A stretch of 41,993 nucleotides of DNA from a virus, in IMG/VR virus record IMGVR_UViG_3300008735_001084, positions 1 through 41,993 of that record. One strand, written 5' to 3'. Both the position numbers and the translations under genes were made by a program. How positions within the stretch are numbered: the first letter of the stretch is position 1; each line of letters opens with the position of its first letter. Shown here piece after piece: positions 10,263 to 41,993 of this stretch. The notes under the pieces were generated by a model. That model made no database searches. It was given only the letters and a program-made list of their open reading frames with translations, and had not been told where the DNA came from.

Positions 10263-10278
10263 ACTCTAAGGAGAAAAC

Positions 10279-11412: not shown

Positions 11413-11413
11413 T

Positions 11414-11992
11414 ATGACATGGGGCGAAAGTTTTAAAGATGAGTTTTATGAGATAACAGTTGCAGGACTCACTCGCAAATTGCCCAAAGTTAAGATTAAC
11501 GACGAGCTCGCAATCGCGAGCTTTGTTATGTTTGGGGATACAGAGCTAGTAGAGAGATGTGCTGAACATCTTACTGCAAAATTTTCCGTAAGCGGTATAG
11601 ATTATCTTGTTTGTCCTGAAGCAAAAGCAATTCCTTTAATTCATGCTTGTGCTAGAAATTTAGGAATAGATTATGTTGTTATACGTAAGTCTGTTAAAGG
11701 ATATATGACTGATCCAATAACAGAAAAAGTTGAATCGATTACAACAATAGGTGAACAAAATCTTGTATTAGATAAAGTTGACATTGATAAAATAAAAGGT
11801 AAAAATGTTGCTATTATAGAAGACGTGGTTTCAACAGGAGGCACTATTGCCTCTGTAGAAAAATTATTAAACAAAGTTGAAGCAAATGTTGTTTGTAGAG
11901 CGGCAGTTTTACTAGAAGATGCAGGATACGAAAATCCTGATTTGGTATATTTAGAAAAATTACCAGTTTTTAAACCGCCTGTACAGGCATAA
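11414..11992 (+). CDS. Adenine/xanthine phosphoribosyltransferase-like enzyme
   Basis: 192 aa. The PRPP motif VAIIEDVVSTGGTIASVEKLL lies near residues 136-156, typical of APRT and Xpt enzymes. The N-terminal CPEAKAIPLIHACARNLGI matches the substrate-recruiting region of APRT-like proteins. It would turn an imported base into a nucleotide with PRPP. It starts 2 bases after the permease stop. A GC-rich 7-bp hairpin (11505-11522) lies inside the gene. It is not a close paralogue of the two other phosphoribosyltransferases in this window. Confidence 0.85.
   Translation: MTWGESFKDEFYEITVAGLTRKLPKVKINDELAIASFVMFGDTELVERCAEHLTAKFSVSGIDYLVCPEAKAIPLIHACARNLGIDYVVIRKSVKGYMTDPITEKVESITTIGEQNLVLDKVDIDKIKGKNVAIIEDVVSTGGTIASVEKLLNKVEANVVCRAAVLLEDAGYENPDLVYLEKLPVFKPPVQA
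11505..11522 (+). repeat. GC-rich hairpin inside the phosphoribosyltransferase gene
   Basis: Perfect inverted repeat AGCTCGC-AATC-GCGAGCT, 7-bp stem and 4-nt loop. It is unusual in such AT-rich DNA and uses rare GC-rich codons. No T-run follows, so it is not a classical terminator. Confidence 0.5.
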
Positions 11993-12006
11993 ATCAAGGA
12001 GATAAA

Positions 12007-12939
12007 ATGAAAAAACTGTTAGTAAGCATAGTTGCATTTGTATTTGCAACGTCTGCATTTGCTAGAGAAGTTACATTACTCATGGATTGGTTTCCACAAG
12101 GTAATCAAAGCGGATTCTGGCAAGCACAATTTGATAATCAATATCACGATGATGTGAAGATTACAATTAAAGCCGGTGGTCCAAAAGTTAGAACTACTAC
12201 CGCAGTAGCATCCGGACAAGTCGAATTTGGCCTTAACGGATCAGATAGTGTTATGATGGCTAATGCCAAAGGAGCAGGACTCAAAGCAATTTTTGTGAGT
12301 CTTAATCATGTGCCGTACACTCTTGTGTTTCATCCTAATCAAGGTATTAAAACCGTTAATGATTTAGAAGGTAGACCTTTTGCAGTTGTAATGGGAATTA
12401 CATATTGGAAATGGGTAAAATATAAGTATGGTGTATCTGCCAAAGAATTTCCTTTAACAGGTGACTTAGGGTTGTTTGCAAGAACTCCTCGACAATTTCA
12501 GCAGGGATATTCAATCTTTCTTCCTGCAAGATTAGATGCAAAAGGAATTGCTAACGAACAAATTACTTTAGAAAGTCTAGGTTATAGACCATATAGTGTA
12601 TTGTTTACAAGTGATAAGATGATTAAAGAAGAACCTGAATTGGTACAGGCAGTTGTCGATCGTCTTAGTATTTCCTTTCACAAGTCATTAGTAGATCCAA
12701 AACCTACTATGGATTTAATTCTATCTAAGAGTAAGAAAGTTACACCTGCTGTTCATATGAATGCACTTGAGCTTATGAAGAGAGATTTTCTTCCTAAAGA
12801 TTGGAGCAAGATAGGATGTCAAGATCCTAATCGATGGGTTGAGCTTTCGAAGCAGTTAAAAGATATTGACGTGCTACCGGCCGATTTTAATCCACATGAC
12901 TCTTATGACACATCTTTTAAGAAGGGTTGTTTTAACTAA
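12007..12939 (+). CDS. NMT1/THI5/SsuA-type periplasmic substrate-binding protein
   Basis: 310 aa. A clean signal peptide (residues 1-19, cleavage after AFA) is followed by VTLLMDWFPQGNQSGFWQA, the signature start of NMT1/THI5-like binding proteins. Members bind thiamine-pyrimidine precursors, sulfonates, nitrate-like or nucleobase-like ligands. The later motifs (VASGQVEFGLNGSDSV and NDLEGRPFAV) fit the family. The ligand cannot be told from the sequence. The ABC ATPase and permease follow directly, completing an importer. AAGGAG ribosome binding site is present. Confidence 0.88.
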   Translation: MKKLLVSIVAFVFATSAFAREVTLLMDWFPQGNQSGFWQAQFDNQYHDDVKITIKAGGPKVRTTTAVASGQVEFGLNGSDSVMMANAKGAGLKAIFVSLNHVPYTLVFHPNQGIKTVNDLEGRPFAVVMGITYWKWVKYKYGVSAKEFPLTGDLGLFARTPRQFQQGYSIFLPARLDAKGIANEQITLESLGYRPYSVLFTSDKMIKEEPELVQAVVDRLSISFHKSLVDPKPTMDLILSKSKKVTPAVHMNALELMKRDFLPKDWSKIGCQDPNRWVELSKQLKDIDVLPADFNPHDSYDTSFKKGCFN

Positions 12940-12942
12940 GGT

Positions 12943-13656
12943 ATGATTAGTGTAAAGAGCGTCACAAAACATTTTGATGAAGTTCATGCACTATCAGAAG
13001 TAAATTTAGATATTGCCGCAGGCGAATTCATTACAGTAGTAGGACCATCCGGTTGCGGCAAATCTACTTTACTTCGAATTATTGCAGATATAACTTCTCC
13101 ATCTAATGGTAATACAGAAAAGCCAGACAAAGGTGCATTTGTTTTTCAAGATGCAGCTCTGTTACCTTGGCGAACAGTACAAAAAAATGTAGAACTATTA
13201 ATGGAGTTAGAAAAAGTAGACAAAGTAGAACGTAAACATAAAGCAGAACAAGCATTAGCACAAGTAGGATTAACAGGTTTTGAAGAGCGATACCCTCACG
13301 AACTATCAGGTGGTATGAAAATGCGATTGTCTCTTGCTAGATCGTTGGTGCTGAAACCAGAATACTTATTATTAGATGAGCCTTTATCAGCAGTTGACGA
13401 ATTAACAAGAGAAGTATTACAAGAAGAGATACATGAGCTATGGAAGAAAGAAAAGTTTACTGCCATTCTTGTTACACATAATGTAACAGAAGCAGTATAT
13501 TTGTCTGACCGTGTAATTGTAATGTCACCTAGACCTGGTAAAATTACATATGATGTAAAAATACCATTTAAGCAACGAACTCAAGCCTTAAGATCAAAAA
13601 CTCAATTTACTAAATTAGTAAACGATATCTCAGGAAAGTTACGAACATGGAAATAA
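12943..13656 (+). CDS. ABC importer ATPase (SsuB/TauB/ThiZ type)
   Basis: 237 aa, standard length. Walker A GPSGCGKSTLL (about residues 34-44), Q-loop FVFQDAALLPW, signature LSGGMKMRLSLARSL (about 124-138), Walker B YLLLDEPLSAVD, and the switch His in LVTHNVTEA are all intact. The ATPase powers uptake together with the binding protein at 12007 and the permease at 13736. It starts 3 bases after the previous stop. A complete ABC importer is rare in phage genomes. Confidence 0.95.
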   Translation: MISVKSVTKHFDEVHALSEVNLDIAAGEFITVVGPSGCGKSTLLRIIADITSPSNGNTEKPDKGAFVFQDAALLPWRTVQKNVELLMELEKVDKVERKHKAEQALAQVGLTGFEERYPHELSGGMKMRLSLARSLVLKPEYLLLDEPLSAVDELTREVLQEEIHELWKKEKFTAILVTHNVTEAVYLSDRVIVMSPRPGKITYDVKIPFKQRTQALRSKTQFTKLVNDISGKLRTWK

Positions 13657-13657
13657 A

Positions 13658-13732
13658 ATGGGAACAATTATTATTTACGGTTGTGCATTTATTATTATAT
13701 ATGGTATTATATTTTACTACGCAAGCAGGTGA
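13658..13732 (+). CDS. 24-aa hydrophobic peptide between ABC genes
   Basis: ATG 13658 begins just after the ATPase stop and the frame ends with TGA 13730-13732, three bases before the permease start. The peptide is almost entirely Ile, Tyr, Phe and Gly and would form one short membrane helix. It could be a small subunit or simply a coupling leader for the permease. Not proven to be translated. Confidence 0.4.
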   Translation: MGTIIIYGCAFIIIYGIIFYYASR

Positions 13733-13735
13733 ATA

Positions 13736-14497
13736 ATGAAAAATATTTTACCACCTATATTAGTTTTAATTTTATTTTTATTCATTTGGTCTGTGGCTGC
13801 ACATATGTATAACTTACCATTTATGTTACCTGGGCCAATGGCAGTGGCAGAAGCATTTATTAATGATTTTGAAATTGTAGTAATAGGTGCCAGTATAACA
13901 ATACAAGAAGCATTATTTGGTTATCTATCGGCGATTCTTATAGGTATTACAGTAGCGGCGATTATGAGCCAATCAAAGATACTAGAACGTAGTTTCTATC
14001 CATATGCTATTCTTTTACAAACAGTACCGGTTGTTGCAGTTGCACCTTTAATAGTATTATGGTTTGGCTTTGAAATGCGGTCTGTTATTATTGTTAGTTT
14101 TATTATATCTTTATTTCCAATTATTAATAACACATTACTAGGTCTTAAATCTACATCTATAAATTTAGTAGAACTATTTCGGTTACATAATAAATCAAGA
14201 TTAGTTGCATTTTACAAGTTACGATTACCTGCCGCAATACCAAATATTATAGCAGGTTTAAGAATATCTGCAGGACTTTCTGTAATTGGTGCAATAGTAG
14301 GAGAGTTTATTATTGGTAGTGGAAGTATGGCAGGAGGCCTAGGAGTGCAAATTATATATGCCCAAGCAGAATTAGAAACTGCATTAGTAATGGCATTAAT
14401 ATTATCTGCAACAATTATGGGGTTTGCATTTTTTATGATGGTCACAACATTAGGACATTTTTTATTACGCAAATGGCATGAATCGGAGATAGCATGA
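13736..14497 (+). CDS. ABC importer permease (SsuC/ThiX type)
   Basis: 253 aa with about six transmembrane helices. The BPD-type EAA loop is visible as KLRLPAAIPNIIAGLRIS (about residues 160-178) followed by VIGAIVGEF. This is the membrane channel of the importer whose ATPase and binding protein precede it. The stop overlaps the next gene by 4 bases (ATGA). Confidence 0.93.
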   Translation: MKNILPPILVLILFLFIWSVAAHMYNLPFMLPGPMAVAEAFINDFEIVVIGASITIQEALFGYLSAILIGITVAAIMSQSKILERSFYPYAILLQTVPVVAVAPLIVLWFGFEMRSVIIVSFIISLFPIINNTLLGLKSTSINLVELFRLHNKSRLVAFYKLRLPAAIPNIIAGLRISAGLSVIGAIVGEFIIGSGSMAGGLGVQIIYAQAELETALVMALILSATIMGFAFFMMVTTLGHFLLRKWHESEIA

Positions 14498-15246
14498 TAT
14501 CAATTTTAGACTTTAAAGATCTAAATAAAAAATTTGTAAAAAATGAACCATTTGATCATGTTGTCATCGATAATTTTTGGTCTGAAGATATAGCAAAAGA
14601 ATTATTATCAGAAATGAGTGATATGCCACAAAATAAAATGGTTACACGTTATCTTTCACCTTTAGAAAATAAGATCGCTATCCCTCATTGGGATCTATTT
14701 AAGAGAACAACATACCGTGCATTTTATTATCTTAATTCAGATTTTATACCAAAATTGCAAAAAATAAGTGGCATTGATAATTTGATACCGGATATTGGAT
14801 TACATGGTGGTGGATTACATTTTCATCCGACCAACGGCATTTTAAATATGCATAAAGATTATTCTATACATCCAAAATTGGGAACAATGAGAAAATTAAA
14901 TTTAATAATTTATATGAATCCAGAATGGAAAGAAGAATGGAACGGTCAGTTGGAATTTTGGTCACATGATGAAAAAAATAATTTACCCAATGAAAAAATA
15001 AAAAGTATTATGCCAATTTTTAACCGAGCAGTTTTATTTGATGTTTCTCAAAATGGCTGGCATGGTTTACCTGTGCATACTAAACAACCAGATCATATAT
15101 ACAGACAATCTATGGCCGTATATTATATGATTAAATCTACAAAAAATGCTGAACGAAGGCCTAAGGCGTTATTTGCTCCGCGATTAGAACAAAAAAATGA
15201 TGAAAAAATAATTAAATTTATTCATGAAAGAGCAGGTCTTATATGA
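14494..15246 (+). CDS. 2OG-Fe(II) oxygenase, prolyl-4-hydroxylase-like
   Basis: 250 aa. The iron-binding triad is visible: MHKDYS (His and Asp) near residue 125, the distal His in NGWHGLP near 190, and the 2-oxoglutarate-binding Arg in YRQSMAVYY near 210. An N-terminal FDHVVIDNFW segment is typical of phage and marine 2OG oxygenases of this class. The substrate is unknown. It is translationally coupled to the ABC permease and to the next gene. Base composition is more AT-rich than its neighbours. Confidence 0.8.
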   Translation: MISILDFKDLNKKFVKNEPFDHVVIDNFWSEDIAKELLSEMSDMPQNKMVTRYLSPLENKIAIPHWDLFKRTTYRAFYYLNSDFIPKLQKISGIDNLIPDIGLHGGGLHFHPTNGILNMHKDYSIHPKLGTMRKLNLIIYMNPEWKEEWNGQLEFWSHDEKNNLPNEKIKSIMPIFNRAVLFDVSQNGWHGLPVHTKQPDHIYRQSMAVYYMIKSTKNAERRPKALFAPRLEQKNDEKIIKFIHERAGLI

Positions 15247-16274
15247 AAAGTACAATTAAAAGAAGAAAACTAGGATTAACACATCTAACGGGAGGAAATG
15301 CAGGCGGATTTACCTTGTATGCTCCACAAACAGGAAACGGCCGGGTAGTATTAATTGATATATACGGTAACGTAGAACATGAATGGCAAATGCCTGTGCG
15401 ACCAGGGCGTGATGCAGTTATACTACCAAACAGCAATTTAGGTTATAATGGTAGCAATGAACGATCTGCTCATTTATATCCTGCATGGGATATTTGGCAT
15501 GGTGGTCACTTTATGGAAGCAACACCTGATGGCGATATTGTTTGGGAACATGAAGACATATATCATCATCATGATGCTCAATGGTTAGACAATGGTAATT
15601 TGCTCTATACAGTTGCAGCAGAAGTACCTATTAAACAATGGGAGGGACAATCTGATATTGTAAGGGAAGTAAATCGCAAAGGTGAAGTTGTATGGGAATG
15701 GAGAGCATGGGAGCATTTAACAAAAGAAGAATATCCTATTCATGAATGCTTTAATGATGATCATTGGCCAATGATAAATGGAGTATACCAATATAATGAT
15801 ATTGTTTACTTGAGTTTGCGTACATCATCTGGTATCATAGGTATAGATAAAAAAACAGGATTTCGTTTTTTTGAAGTTAAATACCCAGAAGTTGCACAAC
15901 AACATTGTCCTGTTATAACAGAAAATGGTTTGTTATGTTTTGATAATGGTAATATTCGTCCTGGTTCAATACATCATTCACGTATCGTAGAATTTAATCT
16001 TAACACTAAAGAGTTAGTATGGAGTTATGTAGACGACATGCCTCCTGCGTTCTTTTCGCCATATATGGGTAGTGTAGAACGATTATGGAATGGCAATACA
16101 TTTATTTGTGAAAGTGCTTTTGGCAGACTATTTGAAGTTACACCAGAAGGAGAAACTGTATGGGAATATGTTATACCCGACTTTGCAGAATATCCAGAAC
16201 CACTTAATAAGTTTATTACTGGTGAACATAATAGTTGCTTCAAAGCCCATAGATATCCGGAGGGACCTAAATGA
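15243..16274 (+). CDS. Arylsulfotransferase (ASST)-like beta-propeller protein
   Basis: 343 aa without a signal peptide. Repeats of the type GxVVWEWRAWEH, GDIVWEHEDIYHHHDAQW, KELVWSYVDD and GETVWEYVIPD mark propeller blades, as in the ASST family. His-rich HHHDAQWLDNGN resembles the region around the ASST active site. Family members transfer sulfate between phenols or act as PQQ-like propellers. Four-base overlaps couple it to oxygenases on both sides. This suggests the three act on the same compound, perhaps the one imported. The exact reaction is not known. Confidence 0.72.
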   Translation: MKSTIKRRKLGLTHLTGGNAGGFTLYAPQTGNGRVVLIDIYGNVEHEWQMPVRPGRDAVILPNSNLGYNGSNERSAHLYPAWDIWHGGHFMEATPDGDIVWEHEDIYHHHDAQWLDNGNLLYTVAAEVPIKQWEGQSDIVREVNRKGEVVWEWRAWEHLTKEEYPIHECFNDDHWPMINGVYQYNDIVYLSLRTSSGIIGIDKKTGFRFFEVKYPEVAQQHCPVITENGLLCFDNGNIRPGSIHHSRIVEFNLNTKELVWSYVDDMPPAFFSPYMGSVERLWNGNTFICESAFGRLFEVTPEGETVWEYVIPDFAEYPEPLNKFITGEHNSCFKAHRYPEGPK

Positions 16275-18583: not shown

Positions 18584-20109
18584 AGACTAGGAAAAACTTA
18601 ACAGAAAGCAATAGAGATTATGCAGTCTTTCTTCCTAGTATAAGTGGATTTTATAATACATTTATATCTAAACAACAACACGGAGAGTATGTTCCTAAGG
18701 ACAGAATTCCTGCGGAGTTTGAAAATGGTATAGAAGGCTGTAATTTTCTTAATGCAGATAAAGGGTATTTTAATTACAAATGGTCATTGTATTCTGCAGG
18801 TCATGCACAACTTGATATTGCAAAAAGCGATGTCGAAGAAAGCATGGTACAGAAGCGTGACAAACAAAAGACTTGGTGTCTTGCTGATAGTGGCGGATTC
18901 CAGATAGGTAAAGGTATTATTAACTTTGACTGGGAGAACTTTTATGAAAAGCCTGGTGATATTAATTATATTGGTAATGCTGATGCCGTTAGGAGTAAGA
19001 TTCTTAATTGGCTCGAGCATACCGCTGACTATGCCCTCGTACTGGACATACCGTCATGGGCTGCCGATCCCGTTAACCGTAAACGGACAAAAATGTCTAG
19101 TTATGCCGAAACACTCAAAGCCACATTGTATAATAACGATTGGTTCGTTAAGCACAGACAAGGAAATGTAAAGTTTCTAAATGCTTTGCATGGTATGGAT
19201 TGGGCTTCTGCAACTGAATGGTATAATGCAGTAAAGCATTTTCCATTTGAAGGTTGGGCATTTGGTTCTAATAATATGCGGAATATATATCTTGCTTTAC
19301 GTAGGATGATTGTTTTGCGTGACGATAAGTTATTAGAAAAAGGCGAAAACGATGTCATACACTTCTTAGGTACATCACGTTTAGATTGGGCATGTATGCT
19401 TACAACTATACAACGCTGTTTGCGTGAGCATGTAAACGAAGATATGATGGTTACATTTGATTGTGCTAGTCCTTTTATAGCAACAGCACATGGACAAATG
19501 TACACACAACATGTACATAGAAACAATCGCTTTAGTTATATAATGGACAAAGCAGTAGATACAAAAGATTTGTCAGGTAGTGATATTCCGTGTCCGTGGA
19601 GCAGTCCTATTGCAGAACGTATGACAATGGGCGACATTTGTTATTACAAGCCAGGTGACTTAAACAAACTAGGCAAAGAAGGTAAAACTAGTTGGGATAG
19701 TTTCAGTTACTTTCTTATGATGGCACATAATGTATATCAGCATATAGAATCTGTACAACGTGCCAACATACTTGCAGATTGTGCAAGTATTGTGCATAAA
19801 CCTAAAATTACAGAATGGCGTAAAGTAAAAGCAACAGGCAACGAAGATGAATTTAGTCCTTGGGTGCCACGTAATTTAATTTACTTTAACGAAGTATGTA
19901 AAGATATATTTAAAGCAGAAAATCCTATGACACTAATTGAAAAAGCAGAAGGACTATTTGCAGATATTAGTGATAAACGCACTCGTAGATCGTCTGCGGC
20001 AGTATTTAATTCGCTATTTGAAGTCGAAGACGTAGGTGACGATAACGATGCAGATACATTTGATCAAAATGATGATAAATTAGAAGCATTAGAACAAACT
20101 GTTCAATAA
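18580..20109 (+). CDS. dpdA: DpdA-like DNA guanine transglycosylase (7-deazaguanine insertion)
   Basis: 509 aa. It carries the tRNA-guanine transglycosylase hallmarks: CLADSGGFQIGKG with the general-acid/base Asp103, and VTFDCASPF with candidate nucleophile Asp294. Between them lie NALHGMDW, GWAFGSNN and HFLGTSRLD, which match the barrel strands of TGT. The CxCxxC zinc site of tRNA enzymes is not seen, as expected for phage DpdA proteins that act on DNA. Known DpdA enzymes exchange guanine in DNA for a 7-deazaguanine base, protecting DNA from restriction. Here it is co-translated with the sliding clamp, consistent with modification following replication. FolE, QueE and a QueD-like protein occur downstream in the same window. 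The C-terminal ~60 residues are acidic. Confidence 0.87.
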   Translation: MKTRKNLTESNRDYAVFLPSISGFYNTFISKQQHGEYVPKDRIPAEFENGIEGCNFLNADKGYFNYKWSLYSAGHAQLDIAKSDVEESMVQKRDKQKTWCLADSGGFQIGKGIINFDWENFYEKPGDINYIGNADAVRSKILNWLEHTADYALVLDIPSWAADPVNRKRTKMSSYAETLKATLYNNDWFVKHRQGNVKFLNALHGMDWASATEWYNAVKHFPFEGWAFGSNNMRNIYLALRRMIVLRDDKLLEKGENDVIHFLGTSRLDWACMLTTIQRCLREHVNEDMMVTFDCASPFIATAHGQMYTQHVHRNNRFSYIMDKAVDTKDLSGSDIPCPWSSPIAERMTMGDICYYKPGDLNKLGKEGKTSWDSFSYFLMMAHNVYQHIESVQRANILADCASIVHKPKITEWRKVKATGNEDEFSPWVPRNLIYFNEVCKDIFKAENPMTLIEKAEGLFADISDKRTRRSSAAVFNSLFEVEDVGDDNDADTFDQNDDKLEALEQTVQ

Positions 20110-20112
20110 ATA
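20105..20112 (+). promoter_or_regulatory. AATAAATA late-promoter-like motif directly before a start codon
   Basis: AATAAATA ends only 4 nt before ATG 20117 and overlaps the dpdA stop. The same block (AATAAATA, four bases, ATGCG) occurs at 41745. If it is a promoter, the transcript would start at or next to the start codon. Confidence 0.4.
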
Positions 20113-22488: not shown

Positions 22489-22697
22489 ACACTAAAAAGT
22501 TTAAAGAAATATTAGAGCAATCTACTCATATAGATAGCGTAGCAGATTATGAAATTCGTCGCTATACAAATAGCGGCGGATATGTTATAATAGATACACT
22601 AGGAGACTTTGTTATATTAGATGAATATAATGTGGCTGATGTCTGTAGCATAATATTCGAGGACTTAATAAATGAAAAAATCATCACAACTAATTAA
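22485..22697 (+). CDS. Small hypothetical protein
   Basis: 70 aa, ATGA overlap with the QueD-like gene and 26-base overlap with the halogenase gene. It has a beta-hairpin-like centre (GGYVIIDTLGDFVILDEYNV) and no known motif. Probably soluble. Function unknown. Confidence 0.6.
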   Translation: MNTKKFKEILEQSTHIDSVADYEIRRYTNSGGYVIIDTLGDFVILDEYNVADVCSIIFEDLINEKIITTN

Positions 22698-24243
22698 AGA
22701 TGTTGTAATAGTAGGCGGCGGTGCCGCAGGTTGGTGGACTGCCGGTTTTCTTTCTTGTAAAAATCCTGAATTAAATATAACTTTAGTAGATTTCGACAAA
22801 GTACATCCTATTGGCGTCGGCGAATCTATGCTTCCTTTAATAAAAGAATTTTTTAATAAAATGGATTTAAAGGAATCTGTATGGATGAAAGAAACAAAAT
22901 CTATATATAAAATAGGAAACAGATTCTTAGATTGGTACAATAAAGGCGATGATAGATTTTTATCTTTTTGGTGGAATTTTGATGATAGATTAATAAGAAG
23001 TTCTTTGTACAATAGACCTGGGCCTGAAATTTTTTGGGGACAAAAAAAAGAAGCAAGATTTACTGATTATTGGTTACACTTATATTTTAATAAAGAAAAA
23101 ACCAAAGAAGATTTTTTTTATGATATACAAGATGCAGCGGGATTACTAGAGAATAAATGTTCTCCGGTAGATTTAAATGGAAATTCATATTTGTCTAATT
23201 GGGCAGGATATGCTTACCATATAGATGCTATAGGTTCTATAAAAATAATACAAAATAATGTGGCATTACCTAATGGAGTTAAACATATAAATGGTATGGT
23301 TACAGATGTTATCATAAAAGATGATAACATAAATTATATTAAATTAGCAGACGAATCTATTATTAAAGGTGATTTATTTATAGATTGTTCGGGGTTCGCT
23401 CGAATATTAATGAACAAATTTGACACTTCTTTAAAATTATATCATACAACATTTAACGATAGTGTTTGTGTTTCACCAATAAAATACAATAATTATAACA
23501 AAGAAGTAGTTCCATATACAGTTTCTGCTGCAAAAGAAAACGGTTGGCAATTTATTATTCCCTTAACTTCTCGTATTGGTAGTGGTTATATATATTCATC
23601 GAAATATATGTCTGACAATGAAGCGAAAGAAGCATTTGTATCTTCATGGCCTAATAACAAAATGTTGTTAGACGAACCCCGAATTATTAAATGGATACCT
23701 TCACGATTAAAAAAATCCTGGCAAGGTAATGTTTGTGCAATAGGCATGTCATGTGGTTTAATAGAACCTTTAGAAGCAAATAGTTTATATATTTCTCAAT
23801 ATGCAATTGAAACATTATCAAATTTATTAATCAAAAAAAATTATATGTTAGATCAAAATATACAATCAATTTTTTGTAAATTTACTGATGTAATATATGA
23901 TCAGACAGCAGAATATCTATCTGCTTGGTTTTTATCTACTAACAGAACAGATACAGAATACTGGAGAGATTATAAAAAACTAGGAGAAAAAGAAAAAATC
24001 AAAGAATTAATCGAAAGCCATTATGCATCTAAATATGATCCTTCAAGGCACGGTTTAAATGCCGATAGCACATGGACTCCGTTGGGATTATTTACTAATA
24101 GTTTTTCTAAAAAATCTATCACCAAAGTAAATCCAAATCTAATAGAAAATGCCAAAGCCATGTTCGAATATAATAAAAAAATAACAATTAATAATGGAAA
24201 AATATTACCAAAAATTTGGGAGGTTTGCCCGTATGATCCTTGA
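22672..24243 (+). CDS. Flavin-dependent tryptophan halogenase-like enzyme
   Basis: 523 aa, normal family length. FAD-binding VIVGGGAAGWWTAG (residues 12-25) carries the GxGxxG-W variant typical of this family. GVGES (48-52) follows, and YKIGNRF contains Lys80 at the place of the catalytic Lys79 of PrnA. GWQFIIPLTSRIGSGYIYSS matches the Trp-halogenase core. GLIEPLEANSL carries the Glu that pairs with the catalytic Lys. Such enzymes use FADH2, O2 and halide to halogenate aromatic compounds; a viral member (VirX1 of a cyanophage) is known to be active. A reductase partner is not seen here. GAGGA precedes the start. The DNA is more AT-rich than its neighbours. Confidence 0.9.
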   Translation: MKKSSQLIKDVVIVGGGAAGWWTAGFLSCKNPELNITLVDFDKVHPIGVGESMLPLIKEFFNKMDLKESVWMKETKSIYKIGNRFLDWYNKGDDRFLSFWWNFDDRLIRSSLYNRPGPEIFWGQKKEARFTDYWLHLYFNKEKTKEDFFYDIQDAAGLLENKCSPVDLNGNSYLSNWAGYAYHIDAIGSIKIIQNNVALPNGVKHINGMVTDVIIKDDNINYIKLADESIIKGDLFIDCSGFARILMNKFDTSLKLYHTTFNDSVCVSPIKYNNYNKEVVPYTVSAAKENGWQFIIPLTSRIGSGYIYSSKYMSDNEAKEAFVSSWPNNKMLLDEPRIIKWIPSRLKKSWQGNVCAIGMSCGLIEPLEANSLYISQYAIETLSNLLIKKNYMLDQNIQSIFCKFTDVIYDQTAEYLSAWFLSTNRTDTEYWRDYKKLGEKEKIKELIESHYASKYDPSRHGLNADSTWTPLGLFTNSFSKKSITKVNPNLIENAKAMFEYNKKITINNGKILPKIWEVCPYDP

Positions 24244-31408: not shown

Positions 31409-31836
31409 TGACAGATGAAGAAAGAAATATACTAAGAAAACAAGTAGAAGTTAATATTAAATTAGATTTATACAAACAACCTGTATTTCCATATTTTCAT
31501 TCTATGGGAATATTTGAATTTTTTTATCCTGTAAAAGTAGGAAACGAAGAAGTAGGTTTTTTACATATTTGGTGGAATAAAGATAAACCATCAGGAATAG
31601 TTCAAGGTGGTAAAGAAGCAAAAGGATTTTGGGAATCAATATGGTATGATAAGGCTAGTGACAAACCTAAAATAGAACCATTTGGCCCGCCTATAGTAAA
31701 TCAACAAAAAGTAATGGAAATTATTATAGAGCAAGAAAGAAAACGGCTCGAAAAATTTGCACTCCTAAAACTTCAAGAAGATAAATTAAATAAATTAAAG
31801 GAACCTTCCGGTGTCCTCAAAAAATACCTGTCATAA
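31408..31836 (+). CDS. Hypothetical protein
   Basis: 142 aa, ATG sharing a base with the nuclease stop. It has aromatic-rich stretches (FPYFHSMGIFEFFYP and LHIWWNKDK) and a Lys/Glu-rich helical C-terminus. No signal peptide. Function unknown. Confidence 0.65.
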   Translation: MTDEERNILRKQVEVNIKLDLYKQPVFPYFHSMGIFEFFYPVKVGNEEVGFLHIWWNKDKPSGIVQGGKEAKGFWESIWYDKASDKPKIEPFGPPIVNQQKVMEIIIEQERKRLEKFALLKLQEDKLNKLKEPSGVLKKYLS

Positions 31837-31839
31837 ATA
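31832..31839 (+). promoter_or_regulatory. CATAAATA late-promoter-like motif
   Basis: CATAAATA overlapping the stop of the preceding gene, 18 nt before ATG 31858, with an AAGGAG ribosome binding site (31844-31849) between. A short leader fits late T4-like transcripts. Confidence 0.5.
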
Positions 31840-33453: not shown

Positions 33454-33897
33454 GTGTTTACATTAGGATTATTTTATTTCGTACCTCTAGTTGCGGAAGG
33501 CAAAGAGTGCGAACAAGGACCAATTGGTTGGGGGTCAGCCCCAACCACAATTATGGTGCAAGAATGTTATAAAAAATTAGATATGATAAGCAGACAACAA
33601 TGGGGAGCCCCCATTCGCCCTGATTTTGGCCTTGCCCAATGTGCTTGTGTAGTAGATTACATAAGAACAGAATATTTCTGTCAAGAAGATTATAATACAT
33701 TCGCAAACGAAAATCCTAATAATGCTGGCATAATTATAGCAAAATATAGCGAACAATGTATTAAAGATGGCGCAATGGGTCCTAATGTTAAAAAACATTA
33801 TTTAGAAAATGAACAAAAGAACCAAGAACAACAAGAAACCAGTACCCCAAAAGAAGAAAAAAAGTCGCCTAGTTGGAATGACATTATTAATAAATAA
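33454..33897 (+). CDS. Secreted Cys-containing hypothetical protein
   Basis: 147 aa from GTG 33454. A short hydrophobic signal-like N-terminus (FTLGLFYFVPLVAEG) is followed by a domain with six Cys residues, likely disulphide-bonded in the periplasm. The C-terminus is Gln/Glu/Lys-rich. It follows the periplasmic protease closely. No family recognised. Confidence 0.55.
   Translation: MFTLGLFYFVPLVAEGKECEQGPIGWGSAPTTIMVQECYKKLDMISRQQWGAPIRPDFGLAQCACVVDYIRTEYFCQEDYNTFANENPNNAGIIIAKYSEQCIKDGAMGPNVKKHYLENEQKNQEQQETSTPKEEKKSPSWNDIINK
33889..33896 (+). promoter_or_regulatory. AATAAATA late-promoter-like motif
   Basis: AATAAATA overlapping the preceding stop, 41 nt before GTG 33938. Confidence 0.4.
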
Positions 33898-34276: not shown

Positions 34277-34279
34277 GAA

Positions 34280-34303
34280 ATGACATTTAATAAAATATGT
34301 CAT
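34280..34303 (+). repeat. Short inverted repeat after the holin-like gene
   Basis: ATGACAT and ATGTCAT arms, 7 bp, separated by 10 AT-only bases. Weak hairpin in the gap between two modules. Confidence 0.4.
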
Positions 34304-34326
34304 ATCTAAGATTATTTCTATAAAAT

Positions 34327-34354
34327 AGTCTTTTGAAGGTTCCTTCAGAAGACT
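34327..34354 (+). terminator. Strong hairpin, putative terminator
   Basis: Arms AGTCTTTTGAAGG and CCTTCAGAAGACT pair over 13 bp with one G-T wobble and a 2-nt loop. No U-run follows on the + strand (AAAATC does), while a short T-run follows on the minus strand. It divides the lysis-like module from the AT-rich biosynthetic cassette. Confidence 0.55.
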
Positions 34355-34381
34355 AAAATCTATATCAATCATTAATTATTA

Positions 34382-35443
34382 ATGTCTAAATACAAATATA
34401 GTGATAAAAAAATAGTATGGTTTCCGGAAAAATTGCAATCTTTTGTTTCCGGAAAAATAACTGCTCCGATATATGTCAGAATAAAACCATTAAATGCATG
34501 TAATCATAAATGTTATTGGTGTGTATACCATGAATCTGATTTATCAGATATGCATAAAGATATGAAAAATAAAGACATGATTAGTGAAGATAAAATGTTA
34601 GAAATTATAGATGATTTATCATCTATAGGAGTCGAAGCAGTTACGTATTCGGGTGGTGGCGAACCTTTAATGCACCCTAGTATAGAAAAAATATTACAAA
34701 AAACATTACATAAAAATATTGCTTTATCGGTTATTACTAACGGTCAATTTCTTAAAAATGATATAGCATCAATCTTAACAAAATCTAGTTGGATACGAGT
34801 TTCTGTTGATTATTGTGACGAAGATAGTTTTGTTTTTAGTAGAAGAATTAATAAAGTATTTTTTAAAGAAATTTTTAATAATATATACGAATTTTCAAAA
34901 ATAAAAGAAAATAGCTGTGATTTCGGAGTAAATTTTATTATTACAAAAGATAATTTTCATAATTTAAATTATGTAACAAATTTATTAAAAGATTGCGGAA
35001 TCGATAATATAAGATTTTCTCCTATGTGGATTACTAATTTTCAGGAGTATCATAAGCCTATAAAAAACGAAATATTTAAAAAAATAGATGAGTTAAGAAT
35101 ATTAGAAAATGATAAATTTAAGATATATTCATCTTATAATCCTTCTGTTATAGAAAATATGGTTACTACTAGACCTTATAAAAAATGTTATGTGATGCAA
35201 TATAATCCTGTTATAGGAGCAGACCTAAATGTTTATGCATGTCATAACCAAGCATATTCACATGATAGTATTATTACTTCATTGAAAGATAAAACATTTA
35301 CAGAAGCATGGTTTAGTAAAGAGGCAATAGAATTTCACAACAACTTTGAATGTCAAAAAATTTGTACTAGTCAGTGTGCCAGTGATAGAAAAAATCTTTT
35401 TATACATGATTTATTATTAGCCCAAGGAGATAGTTTTATATGA
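34382..35443 (+). CDS. Radical SAM protein with SPASM-like C-terminus
   Basis: 353 aa. The [4Fe-4S] motif CNHKCYWC (residues about 40-47) is followed by SGGGEPLMHP, the SAM-binding motif. The C-terminal Cys-rich end (CYVMQY, VYACHNQ, CQKICTSQCASD) fits an auxiliary-cluster SPASM/twitch domain. The enzyme would carry out radical chemistry on a sugar, peptide or small molecule. It heads a five-gene cassette of clearly lower GC than the flanking genes. Overlaps the next gene by 4 bases. Confidence 0.85.
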   Translation: MSKYKYSDKKIVWFPEKLQSFVSGKITAPIYVRIKPLNACNHKCYWCVYHESDLSDMHKDMKNKDMISEDKMLEIIDDLSSIGVEAVTYSGGGEPLMHPSIEKILQKTLHKNIALSVITNGQFLKNDIASILTKSSWIRVSVDYCDEDSFVFSRRINKVFFKEIFNNIYEFSKIKENSCDFGVNFIITKDNFHNLNYVTNLLKDCGIDNIRFSPMWITNFQEYHKPIKNEIFKKIDELRILENDKFKIYSSYNPSVIENMVTTRPYKKCYVMQYNPVIGADLNVYACHNQAYSHDSIITSLKDKTFTEAWFSKEAIEFHNNFECQKICTSQCASDRKNLFIHDLLLAQGDSFI

Positions 35444-36165
35444 ACAATAGATCTAAACAAGTTAGATTTGATGCTTTTAAATTATCAAAAGCAAATGGAG
35501 GGTATCATTATGGAGGTAGCTTTTCGGCTACTGAAATTTTAATTACTTTATATGATAAAGTATTAACAGATAAAGATAAGTTTATTTTAAGTAAAGGACA
35601 TAGTTGTTGGCCGTACTATGTATTATTAAAAGAAAAAGGATTAAATCCTAAATTAGAAGCTCATCCAACATATGATGATAATAATGGGGTGCATTGTACT
35701 ACTGGTAGTTTAGGTCACGGTTTACCTATAGGAATAGGAATGGCTTGGGCAAAAAAATTAAAAAAAGATCAAGGTAGAGTGTTTGTTCTATTAGGAGACG
35801 GTGAATGTCAAGAAGGAACATTATGGGAATCTTTGTTAATTGCATCTCATAGAAATATAGATAATATTATTGCAATTATTGATCATAATAAAATCCAAGG
35901 AGCAGGATTTGTAAATGAAATATTACCAATAAATTGTATAGAAAAAGTTGCTCAAGAATGTAATTGGCATACTATGAATATAGATGGTCATAATGAAAAA
36001 GAAATTTTAACATCATTAATGTATAGAGAAGCAAATAAACCTTTATTAATAATTGCAAATACTATTAAAGGCAAAGGAATAAGTTTCATGGAAAACAAAC
36101 CAGAATGGCATGCCCAATGGCCAGGAGGAGAATTTGAAAAACAACTTATAGAGGAATTATCATGA
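35440..36165 (+). CDS. Transketolase N-terminal (thiamine-PP binding) subunit
   Basis: 241 aa. The TPP-binding domain is intact: SKGHSCWPYY, GSLGHGLPIGIGMAWA, and GDGECQEGTLWESLLIA...IIDHNKIQ, the GDG-x-N magnesium/diphosphate motif. Split transketolases of this kind occur in sugar and surface-glycan clusters. Its partner is the next gene. The exact sugar substrates cannot be told. Confidence 0.88.
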   Translation: MNNRSKQVRFDAFKLSKANGGYHYGGSFSATEILITLYDKVLTDKDKFILSKGHSCWPYYVLLKEKGLNPKLEAHPTYDDNNGVHCTTGSLGHGLPIGIGMAWAKKLKKDQGRVFVLLGDGECQEGTLWESLLIASHRNIDNIIAIIDHNKIQGAGFVNEILPINCIEKVAQECNWHTMNIDGHNEKEILTSLMYREANKPLLIIANTIKGKGISFMENKPEWHAQWPGGEFEKQLIEELS

Positions 36166-36644
36166 GACGACAATTTGGAAAAACTATTGTAAAATTAGCA
36201 GAAAAAGACGAAAAAATAATTTTATTAATAGGAGATGTAGAACAAGAAATGTTAGAATTTAAGAATAAATTTCCTGATAGATTTTTTAATATAGGTATTT
36301 GCGAACAATCAATGATAAGCATAGCAGCAGGAATGGCAATGGAAGGCTTCCGTCCTATTGTATATTCCATAACATCTTTTTTAATTGAAAGACCATTTGA
36401 ACAAATTAAAATAGATATTGACGAACAAAATTTACCTGTTACATTAATAGGCTATTCTGATTATCCTACCCATGGTCCTACTCAACGACCTCTTAATATA
36501 AAAGGATTGGTAGATTTATTTAAAAATATTACAGGTTATTACCCGCGAAATGCTCAAGAAACAGAAAAAGCAATGATAGATTCATATTTGCGTAATTCGC
36601 CTTCTATTATTTCATTAGAACGAGAAGGTTTGCCTTTTTTTTAA
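36162..36644 (+). CDS. Transketolase pyrimidine-binding subunit, lacking the C-terminal domain
   Basis: 160 aa. It holds the PYR domain with the conserved Glu in NIGICEQSMISIAAGMAMEG, which activates the thiamine ring, and GPTQRP. Usual partner subunits are about 300 aa and include a C-terminal transketolase domain. That domain is absent here. Its end (IISLEREGLPFF) is the normal end of the PYR domain, so this looks like a natural short form or a trimmed gene. Overlaps the N-subunit by 4 bases. Confidence 0.82.
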   Translation: MRRQFGKTIVKLAEKDEKIILLIGDVEQEMLEFKNKFPDRFFNIGICEQSMISIAAGMAMEGFRPIVYSITSFLIERPFEQIKIDIDEQNLPVTLIGYSDYPTHGPTQRPLNIKGLVDLFKNITGYYPRNAQETEKAMIDSYLRNSPSIISLEREGLPFF

Positions 36645-36645
36645 A

Positions 36646-37299
36646 ATGAAGACTGCTTTAATAACAGGTTGTAGAAGAGGACTAGGAAAAGAATTATGTA
36701 ATATCTTTTCTTTTAATGAATATAATTTAATATTAAATGCAAAACATAATAATGATGTTTATAATAATTGTAATTATGTTATTGGTGATATAAATCACGA
36801 CAATACTATAAACAAATTATATGATGCCTGCAAATTTACTGGAATTGATGTTTTAATTAATAATGTAGGAATATATGATGATACTTTATTTTTAGAAAAT
36901 TCTATCAATAATTTTACCAATGTAATTAATACAAATTTTATATCTATAGTAAAATTAACACATAAAATTTTACCATTGATGATAGAAAAAAAAGAAGGTA
37001 TAATAATTAATATAAATTCAATTGCTGGTAAAAATGGTAGCAACCGAGAAACTGCATATTCAGCAAGTAAACATGCACTAAAAGGTTTTAGTGATAGTTT
37101 ACAATTTGAAATAACAAAACTAGGAATCAAAATATTAAATGTATATTTAGGAGCGATGCAAACAGATATGACAATTAATAGAAAAGAATATAAAAAATTA
37201 ATTGATCCTGCTGATGCCGCAAAAACTATTTTTAATCTGGTTAATCAACCTGATTCTCTTCGGATTACAGAAATTGAAATTAATAGAAATAATTATTAA
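36646..37299 (+). CDS. Short-chain dehydrogenase/reductase (SDR)
   Basis: 217 aa. The Rossmann TGCRRGLG (TGxxxGxG) is at residues 7-14. INNVG is the NNxG motif, Ser in INSIAG and YSASKHA (YxxxK) complete the active site. It would oxidise or reduce a hydroxyl/keto group with NAD(P). Part of the AT-rich cassette, likely acting on the transketolase product. Confidence 0.88.
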   Translation: MKTALITGCRRGLGKELCNIFSFNEYNLILNAKHNNDVYNNCNYVIGDINHDNTINKLYDACKFTGIDVLINNVGIYDDTLFLENSINNFTNVINTNFISIVKLTHKILPLMIEKKEGIIININSIAGKNGSNRETAYSASKHALKGFSDSLQFEITKLGIKILNVYLGAMQTDMTINRKEYKKLIDPADAAKTIFNLVNQPDSLRITEIEINRNNY

Positions 37300-38099
37300 T
37301 GAAAGAAATACAAGCATTTTTAGATAATATAAATGTATATGACTGTGGGTATGAGAAAATCCGTATATGAAACAAATCAGATGGAGGATATATTTTATTA
37401 AATGATATTTGTGAAAACACCGATACATTAATTAGTATCGGAATCGAAAATGATGTATCATTTGATATAGATTTTACAAAAAAATACAACAAAACAAAAA
37501 TTAATTTATATGATAATACAATAACTACTCTTCCGGTTTCTCATCCTAATTTTAATTTTTTTAAACTAAACGTAGGTAATAAAAATACCAATACTACAAT
37601 TACTTTAGATAAAATTACAAAAGATTTAAATAATAAAACATTATTAAAAATGGATATAGAGTGGGACGAATGGAAAATATTTGAAAAAATAAACACAGAT
37701 ACATTATTAAAATTTAATCAAATGGTAATAGAATTTCATATTATACATATAGATATTAATAATTTTTTTACATCAAATAATATATTAACACCGTATTTTA
37801 ATAATTTTTATACCGAAGTGTATAATAAATTAAATCAAAACCTTTTTACAAAATATAAAAAAATTTTAAAAAAAATATGTAAACATTTTTATATATTTCA
37901 TATTCATGCAAATAATTCATTGCCTAAGTTATCGGTAAATAATAATTCTTTTATACCATTATTAGAATTAAGTTTTGTTAGAAAAGATTTAATCAATACT
38001 GTAAAAAAAACAAAATGTACATATCCAATTTATAATTTAGACTTTCCTAATAAACATTATAAACCTGATATATCATTAGATTTTATTAATAAAACCTAA
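37299..38099 (+). pseudogene. Methyltransferase-like gene interrupted by an in-frame TGA
   Basis: The frame from ATG 37299 (sharing a base with the SDR stop) would give 266 aa but has TGA at codon 24 (37368-37370). Around it the reading is KIRI-stop-NKSDGGYILLNDIC. FkbM-like methyltransferases often have RIGNKxDGGYVL here, so one change GGA to TGA (Gly to stop) explains it. The rest stays in frame to 38099, with ISIGIENDVSFDIDF and LLKMDIEWDEW. No good internal start follows closely; ATG 37650 would leave only 149 aa. It could be a broken gene, a sequencing error or a recoded stop. Confidence 0.75.
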
Positions 38100-38101
38100 A
38101 G

Positions 38102-38371
38102 TTATGTCCATGGTCTTCCTGGTTGAAGTCCACCTGTATTAGCATTATCGGTTAAGTCGCCTGTATTATCTGTGGCATGATACCGTGTAGGCAATCTTGA
38201 TGCATCAAGTGTATTTAAAGTCCTGTGATAAGGTTTTGTGCTATCAGCAGTACCTGAAATAGTACCATCAATTGCAACTGTTTTACCTTGTCGTTTAGCT
38301 TCTGCTATTTGTAATTTTTGGTCTTGTCTGTCTTTTTTTAATGTTAGGTTTGATATACTGTTTGCTGCCAT
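38102..38371 (-). CDS. Small hydrophilic protein, the only minus-strand gene
   Basis: 89 aa on the minus strand with an AAGGAG ribosome binding site ahead of ATG (38371-38369). Its N-terminal half is Lys/Gln-rich and helical; the rest is Thr/Asp-rich and disordered (repeated DNT and TGD). It is convergent with the methyltransferase remnant (2-base gap). A TATAAATA motif on the minus strand (38396-38389) would start transcription right at the ribosome binding site. Function unknown; late virion protein is plausible. Confidence 0.72.
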   Translation of the reverse strand: MAANSISNLTLKKDRQDQKLQIAEAKRQGKTVAIDGTISGTADSTKPYHRTLNTLDASRLPTRYHATDNTGDLTDNANTGGLQPGRPWT

Positions 38372-38383
38372 ATTAAACTCCTT

Positions 38384-38405
38384 GTAAATATTTATAAATA
38401 TTTAC
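38384..38405. promoter_or_regulatory. 22-bp perfect palindrome carrying late-promoter motifs on both strands
   Basis: The 22 bases read the same on both strands (half-site GTAAATATTTA). They contain TATAAATA on the + strand (38393-38400) and on the minus strand (38396-38389). It separates the minus-strand gene from the + strand gene at 38406. It could be a bidirectional late promoter or a dimeric operator. Confidence 0.7.
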
Positions 38406-38654
38406 ATGGCATATGTAAAAATAAATAAGTGGGAATTGACAACCATTCAAGTTTACTATTACATTCCAGACTATGAACACATAGTCAATTTATTCATGTT
38501 TCAAGACGACGATGTTCCTCCTAAGTATCCGCGAATGCAAAAATTCGTTCAATACTGGGAGGAAAACCTTATAGCAAAAATCGAATCTATAAAAATATCT
38601 AGTGCAAATCAGTCTGATGTTAAGAGAGTAGATAAATACTTTCATATTAACTAG
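38406..38654 (+). CDS. Small hypothetical protein
   Basis: 82 aa, ATG directly after the palindrome, without a usable ribosome binding site. Aromatic-rich and soluble. If transcribed from the TATAAATA in the palindrome the mRNA would be leaderless. No family recognised. Confidence 0.55.
   Translation: MAYVKINKWELTTIQVYYYIPDYEHIVNLFMFQDDDVPPKYPRMQKFVQYWEENLIAKIESIKISSANQSDVKRVDKYFHIN
38632..38638 (+). promoter_or_regulatory. ATAAATA late-promoter-like motif
   Basis: GATAAATA within the end of the preceding gene, 65 nt before ATG 38703. Confidence 0.35.
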
Positions 38655-38702
38655 CGGCAGGCGAAGTAGTATACTAACTCTTATACAAGGGAATGTGCTC
38701 CA

Positions 38703-38873
38703 ATGCACTATAATGTCGTATATCAAAAAAATTTACCCCCTTACGTATATCATTACCAGAACATAGAAGCCACCTCAACAGAAGAAGCTAAAAGGATTTT
38801 TCATGCAAAACGTCCTTATAGAGAATACTCTGATGAAATGGTTATTTCTGTTAACGAACGTAAGGATAAGTAA
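38703..38873 (+). CDS. Small hypothetical protein
   Basis: 56 aa with AAGGGA upstream. Tyr-rich N-terminus (HYNVVYQKNLPPYVYHYQN) and a charged helical C-terminus. Function unknown. Confidence 0.55.
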   Translation: MHYNVVYQKNLPPYVYHYQNIEATSTEEAKRIFHAKRPYREYSDEMVISVNERKDK

Positions 38874-38877
38874 TTTC

Positions 38878-38885
38878 AATAAATA
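38878..38885 (+). promoter_or_regulatory. AATAAATA late-promoter-like motif
   Basis: AATAAATA followed by ATGTAT, 25 nt before TTG 38911, with TTGGAG as ribosome binding site between. Layout fits a late promoter with a short leader. Confidence 0.45.
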
Positions 38886-38910
38886 ATGTATATTAATTGG
38901 AGTTCTAGCC

Positions 38911-39834
38911 TTGCGATTCAAAGAATTAATAACAGAGATAACAGCAGGTCATCGTGTAGAAAAAATGTGGGTCGGACAATACGGTCTTCCTACCCAAAAA
39001 AGAATAGAACACGGTCAGCAAATTATTGGCGAATGGAATAGCAAGTACAACATATGGGTTGTTGCACATAACCCTGGCGCTGATACAGAATTAGAAGTTA
39101 CTACAAAACCTATCCCTCATCCCTTTATAGGCGAATTTAGAAAACAGTTTGGACAGTCATCGGACTTACCGGATGGTTATGAAGATCTACCGCAAGAAGA
39201 ATTTGACAGATTATTACAACGTAAGTATGACGGACCTAGAGAATACCGTGTTATGACATTAACATTAATAGAAGAAGTAATGGTAACTGATGATAACAAG
39301 GTTTATGGTAAAAGAGTTTCCTGGGTCCAAAAAACTCCAGAAGGTGCAGGCTCAGAAATAAACATGGTAGAATTTTATATTTGGCTTATGAATACATTTA
39401 ATACTGCTATTGTTTCTGATTATACACAGAGCAAAGGTGGTGCTTCAATTTGGAAGAAATTGGCAAAAGATCCTAGGGTTGATATGTTTGGATATAGCCC
39501 AGAAGGAAAAGGTAAATTTAGTCAAGTAGATGCTGAAGGCGATGCTGACTTATGGGACACATGGACACGTGACGACAAAGAAATAGTAGACCAAGCTCAA
39601 TCTGCAAGGAAATCTGCTTGGGGAACTACAGAATTAGACCAAGCGGTTTGGCAAGTACATAAAGATTGGAATGAAGGTAAAATTTCAAAAGAAGAAGCCA
39701 AACAAAAAGAAGCAGAAATGCGACAACAAGAAATGGATATAAGGCAAGCAGTATATGACGCACGTGACGAAACCGAATATACTAGACGTAATCAAATTTT
39801 TATTGTTCCTAGCAACCGTAGTATGCATAGTTAG
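38911..39834 (+). CDS. Hypothetical protein with capsid-targeting-like N-terminus
   Basis: 307 aa from TTG 38911 with TTGGAG upstream. MRFKELITEITAGHR resembles the T4 capsid targeting sequence (MKTYQEFIAE) with a possible gp21-type cleavage site after ITE. The middle has Trp-rich segments; the C-terminus (about 230-290) is a charged helical region rich in Lys, Glu and Gln. A late motif lies upstream. It may be an internal head protein delivered with DNA. No enzyme motif seen. Confidence 0.6.
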   Translation: MRFKELITEITAGHRVEKMWVGQYGLPTQKRIEHGQQIIGEWNSKYNIWVVAHNPGADTELEVTTKPIPHPFIGEFRKQFGQSSDLPDGYEDLPQEEFDRLLQRKYDGPREYRVMTLTLIEEVMVTDDNKVYGKRVSWVQKTPEGAGSEINMVEFYIWLMNTFNTAIVSDYTQSKGGASIWKKLAKDPRVDMFGYSPEGKGKFSQVDAEGDADLWDTWTRDDKEIVDQAQSARKSAWGTTELDQAVWQVHKDWNEGKISKEEAKQKEAEMRQQEMDIRQAVYDARDETEYTRRNQIFIVPSNRSMHS

Positions 39835-41543: not shown

Positions 41544-41749
41544 TTAAAGATGAAGTGCCAAAACGTCCTAAAAAATATCCTAAAGGACATATGCAAGAAA
41601 GAGAACGTATTGTAAAAGAATTACGTAGAGTCTACGTAGAAGTATCCACAAAAAATGCATTGTTAAAACTAGATCATGCCTACCGAAAAGTAACACAACT
41701 ACAAAAAGGTAATGTCCTGCCCTGGATCGATTTACCTCAAATCAAATAA
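41540..41749 (+). CDS. Small basic protein
   Basis: 69 aa, ATGA overlap with the previous gene. Lys/Arg-rich with an amphipathic helix, possibly nucleic-acid-binding. The stop overlaps an AATAAATA motif. Confidence 0.6.
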   Translation: MIKDEVPKRPKKYPKGHMQERERIVKELRRVYVEVSTKNALLKLDHAYRKVTQLQKGNVLPWIDLPQIK

Positions 41750-41752
41750 ATA
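41745..41752 (+). promoter_or_regulatory. AATAAATA motif four bases before a start codon
   Basis: Same arrangement as at 20105: AATAAATA, four bases, then ATGCG. Confidence 0.4.
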
Positions 41753-41756
41753 TTGT

Positions 41757-41993
41757 ATGCGGTATCGAGAACTCTTAGAAGATATTAATTGGTCATATCC
41801 TAACTTTGAAGAGGAATGGGGAGAAGTTGTAGGAGACGATCCTGAACTTAGTGCTAGATATAGTAAACATTTTCCTAACAAGGAAACATGGCTTGCTAAA
41901 GCAAAACAAGGAAGTGTTCATCAAGTGACTCCAGAAATGCAAGTGCAAAATACAGATGCATTTTATAATACACCCGAAACAGAATTTGATCAA
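41757..41993 (+). CDS. Partial protein with capsid-targeting-like N-terminus (cut by window end)
   Basis: 79 codons are visible and the frame is open at the window edge. MRYRELLEDINWSY resembles the starts of the proteins at 20117 and 38911. The rest is acidic and aromatic, with no identified domain yet. Confidence 0.6.
   Translation, partial: MRYRELLEDINWSYPNFEEEWGEVVGDDPELSARYSKHFPNKETWLAKAKQGSVHQVTPEMQVQNTDAFYNTPETEFDQ

Follow-up and report, generated by a model that had tools for sequence, protein, structure and literature searches.

The window analysed here is the whole of one IMG/VR virus record (41,993 bases), and it encodes a T4-type DNA polymerase. Among named phages, the closest polymerases are those of Agrobacterium phage Atu_ph07 (48% identity) and Sinorhizobium phage Phosso (47%), and the protein is 82-100% identical in 19 of the 80 IMG/VR loci kept for comparison. 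The initial annotation drew attention to a 22-bp palindrome at 38384-38405, placed between divergent genes and carrying one motif on both strands. Direct reading of the window bears this out: the interval reads GTAAATATTTATAAATATTTAC, and the perfect palindrome is in fact slightly longer, at 24 bp (TGTAAATATTTATAAATATTTACA; Table 1), growing to 30 bp (38380-38409) if one mismatched pair is allowed. It occupies 23 of the 34 bp that separate the two flanking open reading frames (ORFs). As in a bidirectional promoter, overlapping recognition elements are present on both strands, each of them a copy of TATAAATA, a motif that is not otherwise enriched in the window (5 matches against 10 expected). 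No longer perfect palindrome exists in the window, the runner-up measuring 16 bp, and, of 180 windows simulated at Markov orders 1, 3 and 5 (60 per order), 3 contained a perfect palindrome of 24 bp. Across the 85 related loci collected (1.07 Mb) there is one other distinct 24-bp palindrome, identical in L031 and L032.

Table 1. Features of the palindrome, its flanking genes, the neighbouring insert and late-promoter boxes discussed in the text (d, distance in nt from box to ATG)
Feature	Position	Strand	Remarks
24-bp perfect palindrome	38383-38406		Its two ends coincide exactly with the predicted +1 positions of the minus and plus strands, which are 23 bp apart
TATAAATA late-promoter box of the minus gene (predicted -13 to -6)	38389-38396	-	TATA at 38393-38396 common to the plus box
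TATAAATA late-promoter box of usg (predicted -13 to -6)	38393-38400	+	Followed by 5-nt spacer TTTAC, then ATG
AAGGAG, Shine-Dalgarno of the minus gene	38383-38378	-	First A is the predicted +1
89-aa gene	38102-38371	-	Residues 1-88 55% identical to N-terminus of a LamG-domain protein in L002
82-aa Usg-family gene (PF06233)	38406-38654	+	A of ATG is the predicted +1; without Shine-Dalgarno
Insert, about 4.1 kb	34277-38405		Not seen between the counterpart genes of G004 and G006; palindrome forms its right edge
13-bp hairpin, -16.6 kcal/mol	34326-34355	+	Located after gene 33938, ahead of the insert genes; plus strand shows no U-tract immediately downstream
ATAAATA	33890-33896	+	Precedes gene 33938; shared with both relatives, in which usg follows co-directionally downstream
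ATAAATA	20106-20112	+	d=4 to the ATG of gene 20117, as in L007 and L008; d=5 in L017
ATAAATA	41746-41752	+	d=4 to the ATG at 41757; L086 has d=5
ATAAATA, then CTATAAGGAG	31833-31839	+	Box-to-Shine-Dalgarno layout as on the minus side of the palindrome

The 89-aa gene was described as the only one on the minus strand, which is consistent with the ORF list: the remaining minus-strand ORFs of at least 60 aa are overlapped by longer plus-strand ORFs or lie within a low-GC gap. Relatives of its protein were found at two IMG/VR loci, near-identical in sequence, and none in the phage collection or in a set of 35 records (a search run without positive control); a search of 15 records returned the window itself only. 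The LamG-domain protein that it resembles sits 1.3 kb from a terminase gene. For Usg, a single-protein search of IMG/VR returned no relatives and an alignment search returned 119 matches, two of which, among the best 80 of the 119, exceed 50% identity and are relatives already known. The family is carried by two relatives (L084 and L085) and, among 14 control genomes, in Caulobacter only. Gene 38911, a neighbour, had no IMG/VR match by peptide patterns; since G004 carries a homologue at 42% identity, this type of scan misses relatives.

What could two overlapping copies of such a motif do between divergent genes? The T4 late-promoter box is TATAAATA, and a comparative genome paper places it at -13 to -6 (PMC1524935); a review mentions A(-13) replacing T, which agrees with this placement (PMC2988020). 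Applied to the window, the T4 geometry predicts a minus-strand start at 38383, on the first A of AAGGAG, where the initial annotation had also put it, and a plus-strand start at 38406, on the A of the usg ATG, so that the perfect palindrome would run exactly from +1 to +1. Two traits of a leaderless mRNA, an AUG start and no Shine-Dalgarno, are found at usg, the 5' end at the AUG being predicted. The initial annotation overlooked this predicted leaderless plus-strand start, the position of the palindrome at the edge of an insert and the comparable divergent late boxes of T4.

No sigma-70-like promoter match falls at the site: 13 such matches occur in 37400-39300, not one of them with its second hexamer inside the palindrome, and their number is at shuffle level (mean 12.7). 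A search for the late sigma factor gp55 found none in the 42-kb window record and none in the four closest relative records examined, all of which are fragments; the late sigma family phrog_234 is present in 7 of 17 relative records and in all three named phages. Given its fit to the published T4 geometry (PMC1524935) and how the same box behaves in related phages, the proposal of a two-way late promoter is supported by comparison, and the element is probably a bidirectional T4-type late promoter made of two back-to-back boxes that share a central TATA. A phage late sigma of the gp55 family, acting on host RNA polymerase, would open either of the overlapping boxes. In the minus direction, transcription starting at the first A of AAGGAG would give the 89-aa gene a short leader with a Shine-Dalgarno; in the plus direction, a start at the A of the ATG would produce a leaderless mRNA for usg and perhaps also for genes beyond it. 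Because the boxes overlap, we propose that a single polymerase at a time can occupy the site.

The wider behaviour of the box points to the same function. ATAAATA is rarer in the window than in simulations (14 sites versus about 33-37), and 10 of the 14 lie within 65 nt upstream of a gene start, the other four (17283, 23381 on the minus strand, 32517 and 38421) falling inside ORFs. Across the 85 loci it occurs in 199 distinct contexts, below all 20 other permutations of its letters (267-695), and 104 of the 199 have the ATG of an ORF of at least 50 aa within 40 nt. The distances to that ATG are sharply distributed: 40 of the 199 boxes stand at d=5, with d=4 and d=6 accounting for 4 and 2, while the letter permutations have 0-7 sites each at d=5. 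Permutations that overlap the box peak at shifted distances, with up to 21 sites in the 85 loci and up to 30 in a second collection of 80 terminase-region loci (the terminase set). Depletion of ATAAATA is absent from the terminase set (298 sites versus 200-444 for the permutations), and 212 of these 298 are near such an ATG, compared with 12-36% for the permutations. Here 33, 47 and 20 boxes stand at d=4, 5 and 6, two at d=9-17, and a second mode follows at 18-25. The ORFs behind all these ATG counts were called mechanically and are not curated, and the loci are related to one another, making the sites non-independent. Site counts also vary with the rule for removing identical contexts, which differs between the 85-locus and terminase sets, and the terminase-set analysis omits L002 and L003 of the first set.

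The two modes differ in how translation would begin. A Shine-Dalgarno-like motif accompanies 0 of 143 boxes at d=4-6 versus 50 of 101 at d=18-25 (both sets pooled; starts ATG, GTG and TTG), its absence at short spacing being partly forced because the box itself fills much of the stretch tested. The start codon is ATG in 136 of the 143 boxes at d=4-6. The terminase gene itself carries NTAAATA at d=4-6 in 71 of the 80 loci (58 of 66 distinct upstream sequences), in the form of ATAAATA in 36, CTAAATA in 31 and a variant with G or T first in 4. CTAAATA, given as the late box of phage Aeh1 in PMC1524935, thus occurs in this set as well; the short spacing is seen at 42 of its 116 sites in the terminase set versus 5 of its 161 in the polymerase set. 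Of 188 [AC]TAAATA sites with d=4-6, 13 are preceded by an intrinsic terminator whose end lies 2-28 nt from the box; with a single mononucleotide shuffle of each site, the count is 0 of 188. At those 13 sites the message should therefore start anew near the ATG. Terminators 2-9 nt before a late box with a leaderless-type start are found in L097, L098, L101, L103, L105, L156 and L159. The d=5 peak could in principle be an artefact of stop-start overlap, with the TAA of the box ending the preceding gene. This was rejected, since that TAA is the stop of a frame of at least 60 codons at only 15 of 142 sites with d=4-6, and a role as stop codon is therefore absent from most of them; of the rest, another such stop is close by at 112, the script classed 7 as divergent, 6 are of other kinds and 2 lie near a contig end.

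Short spacing looks like a lineage-specific trait, as ATAAATA at d=4-6 is absent from the stretches surveyed of T4 (40 kb), Syn9 (50 kb), Atu_ph07 (50 kb), Phosso (32 kb) and Vibrio phage 2.275 (17 kb). In PA5oct 2 of 26 ATAAATA sites have it (42 kb surveyed). One site in this cultured Pseudomonas phage (L301:36101) has the box 5 nt ahead of the ATG; the gene, at 144985 of NC_071039, encodes a structural protein, and its annotation carries mass-spectrometry evidence. Orthologous genes can also switch mode: gene 38911 has a Shine-Dalgarno-led TTG in the window and a box 5 nt before an ATG in L086 (L086:10300). The leaderless side of the palindrome would be the new element at this locus, as part of a clade-wide pattern. 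On comparative sequence grounds it is likely that a large, mostly uncultured clade of the T4 superfamily has fused its late promoter to the start codon, with the box at -13 to -6 of the AUG, so that the terminase, head-closure and many other late genes would be leaderless, and that its divergent late genes share a palindromic core with one leaderless and one Shine-Dalgarno side. If so, a whole phage clade would move its late genes to Shine-Dalgarno-independent initiation purely by promoter placement, which would matter for the late-infection use of ribosomes by phages and for the calling of gene starts in such genomes. Phage transcripts in general are often leaderless, according to PMC5312081. 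In the literature found, covering titles and abstract openings, with most subscription papers outside its scope, none reported leaderless late mRNAs in T4-superfamily phages.

The two-way design recurs in other phages. An IMG/VR scan for the pattern CTCCT, 3-9 nt, TATTTATAAATA, 4-6 nt, ATG found 35 stretches, the window record not among them. ORFs of at least 40 aa flank 22 of the 35 on both sides (13 lack them), against a rough chance rate of 9% per site, and these 22 form 10 groups by their plus protein (the largest with 11 members) and 11 by their minus protein (the largest with 10). L273, the locus tested for the largest group, encodes on its ATG side the head-closure protein gp4, 35% identical to T4 gp4 and aligned from residue 1, so that its start codon is very likely correct; the Shine-Dalgarno side matches the baseplate tail-tube-cap family, with no match to T4 gp53. 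The phrog_234 late sigma is present in 4 of the 24 hit records examined from the 35. Looser divergent pairs, in which each side has its own late box and ORF, occur in L088, L090, L114, L121, L151 and L154. A face-to-face pair in L031 was excluded as a two-way case for having no plus-strand ORF of 50 aa within 60 nt of its plus box.

These two-sided sites bear on whether both boxes of the palindrome are functional. The minus promoter alone could be real, with usg read from upstream transcripts and the plus box a by-product of symmetry. A palindromic site mirrors any box automatically, and two relatives have usg in the same orientation as gene 33938, without a late box of its own. However, the plus box has exactly the 5-nt spacing that peaks across the clade, usg in the window lacks a Shine-Dalgarno and stands behind a gene on the opposite strand, and the two-sided design elsewhere needs just a 12-16 bp palindrome. 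A one-sided promoter is accordingly improbable.

Known systems offer parts of this arrangement. Like the T4 late promoters, which depend on gp55, gp33 and gp45, the element has the box TATAAATA and no -35, and in related contigs such boxes stand ahead of virion genes (terminase; gp4 and tail-tube-cap). Closely packed divergent late boxes are already present in T4: at 4/53 and inh/segE, pairs of divergent late boxes form an inverted repeat between divergent genes, as here. At 4/53 two TATAAATA boxes stand face to face, 7 nt apart, with a Shine-Dalgarno on both sides, and at inh/segE TATAAATA faces AATAAATA, as read from the printed sequence. Unlike the 4/53 pair, the boxes in the window are back to back, have a TATA in common and would leave one side leaderless. 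Many boxes in the present set also lie 4-6 nt from an ATG, whereas in the 40-kb stretch of T4 the ATGs found within 40 nt lie 14-35 nt away. Bacterial sigma-70 bidirectional promoters similarly share the symmetry of the -10 element, which is here replaced by a late phage sigma box. In Escherichia coli, 18 bp between the two starts is commonest, and 10 bp and the 23 bp predicted here are also common, according to PMC12825309. Leaderless mRNAs likewise have an AUG at the 5' end, here a predicted one, and no Shine-Dalgarno; unlike other examples, they would be a systematic feature of one late promoter class in a phage clade.

The relatives also suggest how the site arose. In G004 and G006, usg (72-73% identical) runs in the same direction as the homologue of gene 33938. 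It starts 4 nt past the stop of that homologue in G004, as read from the sequence; in G006 one more short open frame precedes it, and it has a Shine-Dalgarno. No late box lies directly upstream of usg in either relative, and its start reads GTGGC in both, versus ATGGC in the window. The window has here an insert containing a radical SAM/SPASM gene, a transketolase split into N and C parts, a short-chain dehydrogenase (SDR) gene, an orphan gene and the minus-strand gene, with a GC content of 18-29% for all of them except the last (38%). An assembly chimaera is unlikely, as the counterparts of the genes flanking the insert are neighbours in G004 and G006. Probably the site came into being as the insert separated usg from the operon led by gene 33938. 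In the simplest history the insert would have carried the minus gene with its own late promoter, and the mirrored promoter would have given usg a new start. If this holds, one 24-bp symmetric element can equip an inserted gene block with a promoter for both sides.

Why is the palindrome so long? Its 6-bp outer arms are not accounted for by promoter function, because a 12-bp core suffices elsewhere (perfect palindromes of 12-16 bp in the 35 scan hits). The arms may be a mutational scar: template switching or quasi-palindrome correction would have copied the minus promoter, as far as its +1, in inverted form and so supplied usg with a promoter after the insertion; this concerns the origin of the site and is compatible with its being a bidirectional late promoter. 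The mirror ends exactly at both predicted +1 positions, the usg start reads ATGGC where the relatives have GTGGC, and identical 5-nt spacers would be unlikely in independent promoters (0.0009 for five-versus-long pairs, 0.0015 column-wise, 0.0097 for all pairs). A match at the one-in-a-hundred to one-in-a-thousand level could nonetheless be chance, and no intermediate sequence is known, which leaves the scar a plausible but tentative explanation.

Could the arms also act in RNA? In a transcript reading through the site, the usg ATG could be masked by a hairpin from which late transcripts, starting inside the palindrome, would be free. For the 41-nt stretch concerned, the computed fold has -9.4 kcal/mol (z -4.3) and pairs both the A of the ATG and the following GG, and a comparable mechanism is described for the T4 genes e, soc, 49 and I-TevI in PMC3014915. 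Against a general rule, 142 leaderless-type sites fold barely better than their shuffles (mean z -0.6), and read-through into usg is itself presumed, so we regard a masking hairpin as rather unlikely. An intrinsic terminator was rejected: the palindrome lacks a U-tract and, should the predicted starts hold, would be absent from both late RNAs.

The initial annotation had also suggested an operator for a dimeric protein, which would here regulate both genes. Perfect dyad symmetry between divergent genes is what such an operator would look like, and the arms TGTAAA/TTTACA resemble regulator half-sites, presumably of a TyrR-like kind. The TyrR-like arrangement TGTAAA-N6-TTTACA was rejected, its spacing being mismatched to the site. 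The search for other copies went against the suggestion: the window holds no second copy within 3 mismatches, IMG/VR has no exact copy, and among 167 loci (1.95 Mb) there is none within 3 mismatches, one at 4 and one at 5, with TGTAAA-N12-TTTACA restricted to this site. An operator is thus very improbable, and a bidirectional late promoter remains the preferred reading.

Elsewhere in the window, a run of transport and metabolism genes at 9174-16274 comprises a PnrA-like binding protein, a phosphoribosyltransferase, an NMT1/THI5-type binding protein, a 2OG-Fe(II) oxygenase and an arylsulfotransferase-like gene, together with a permease-like gene and ABC transporter-like genes, the permease and transporter labels coming from reading alone. 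A gene of the tryptophan halogenase family (phrog_2928, E 8e-86) lies at 22672-24243.
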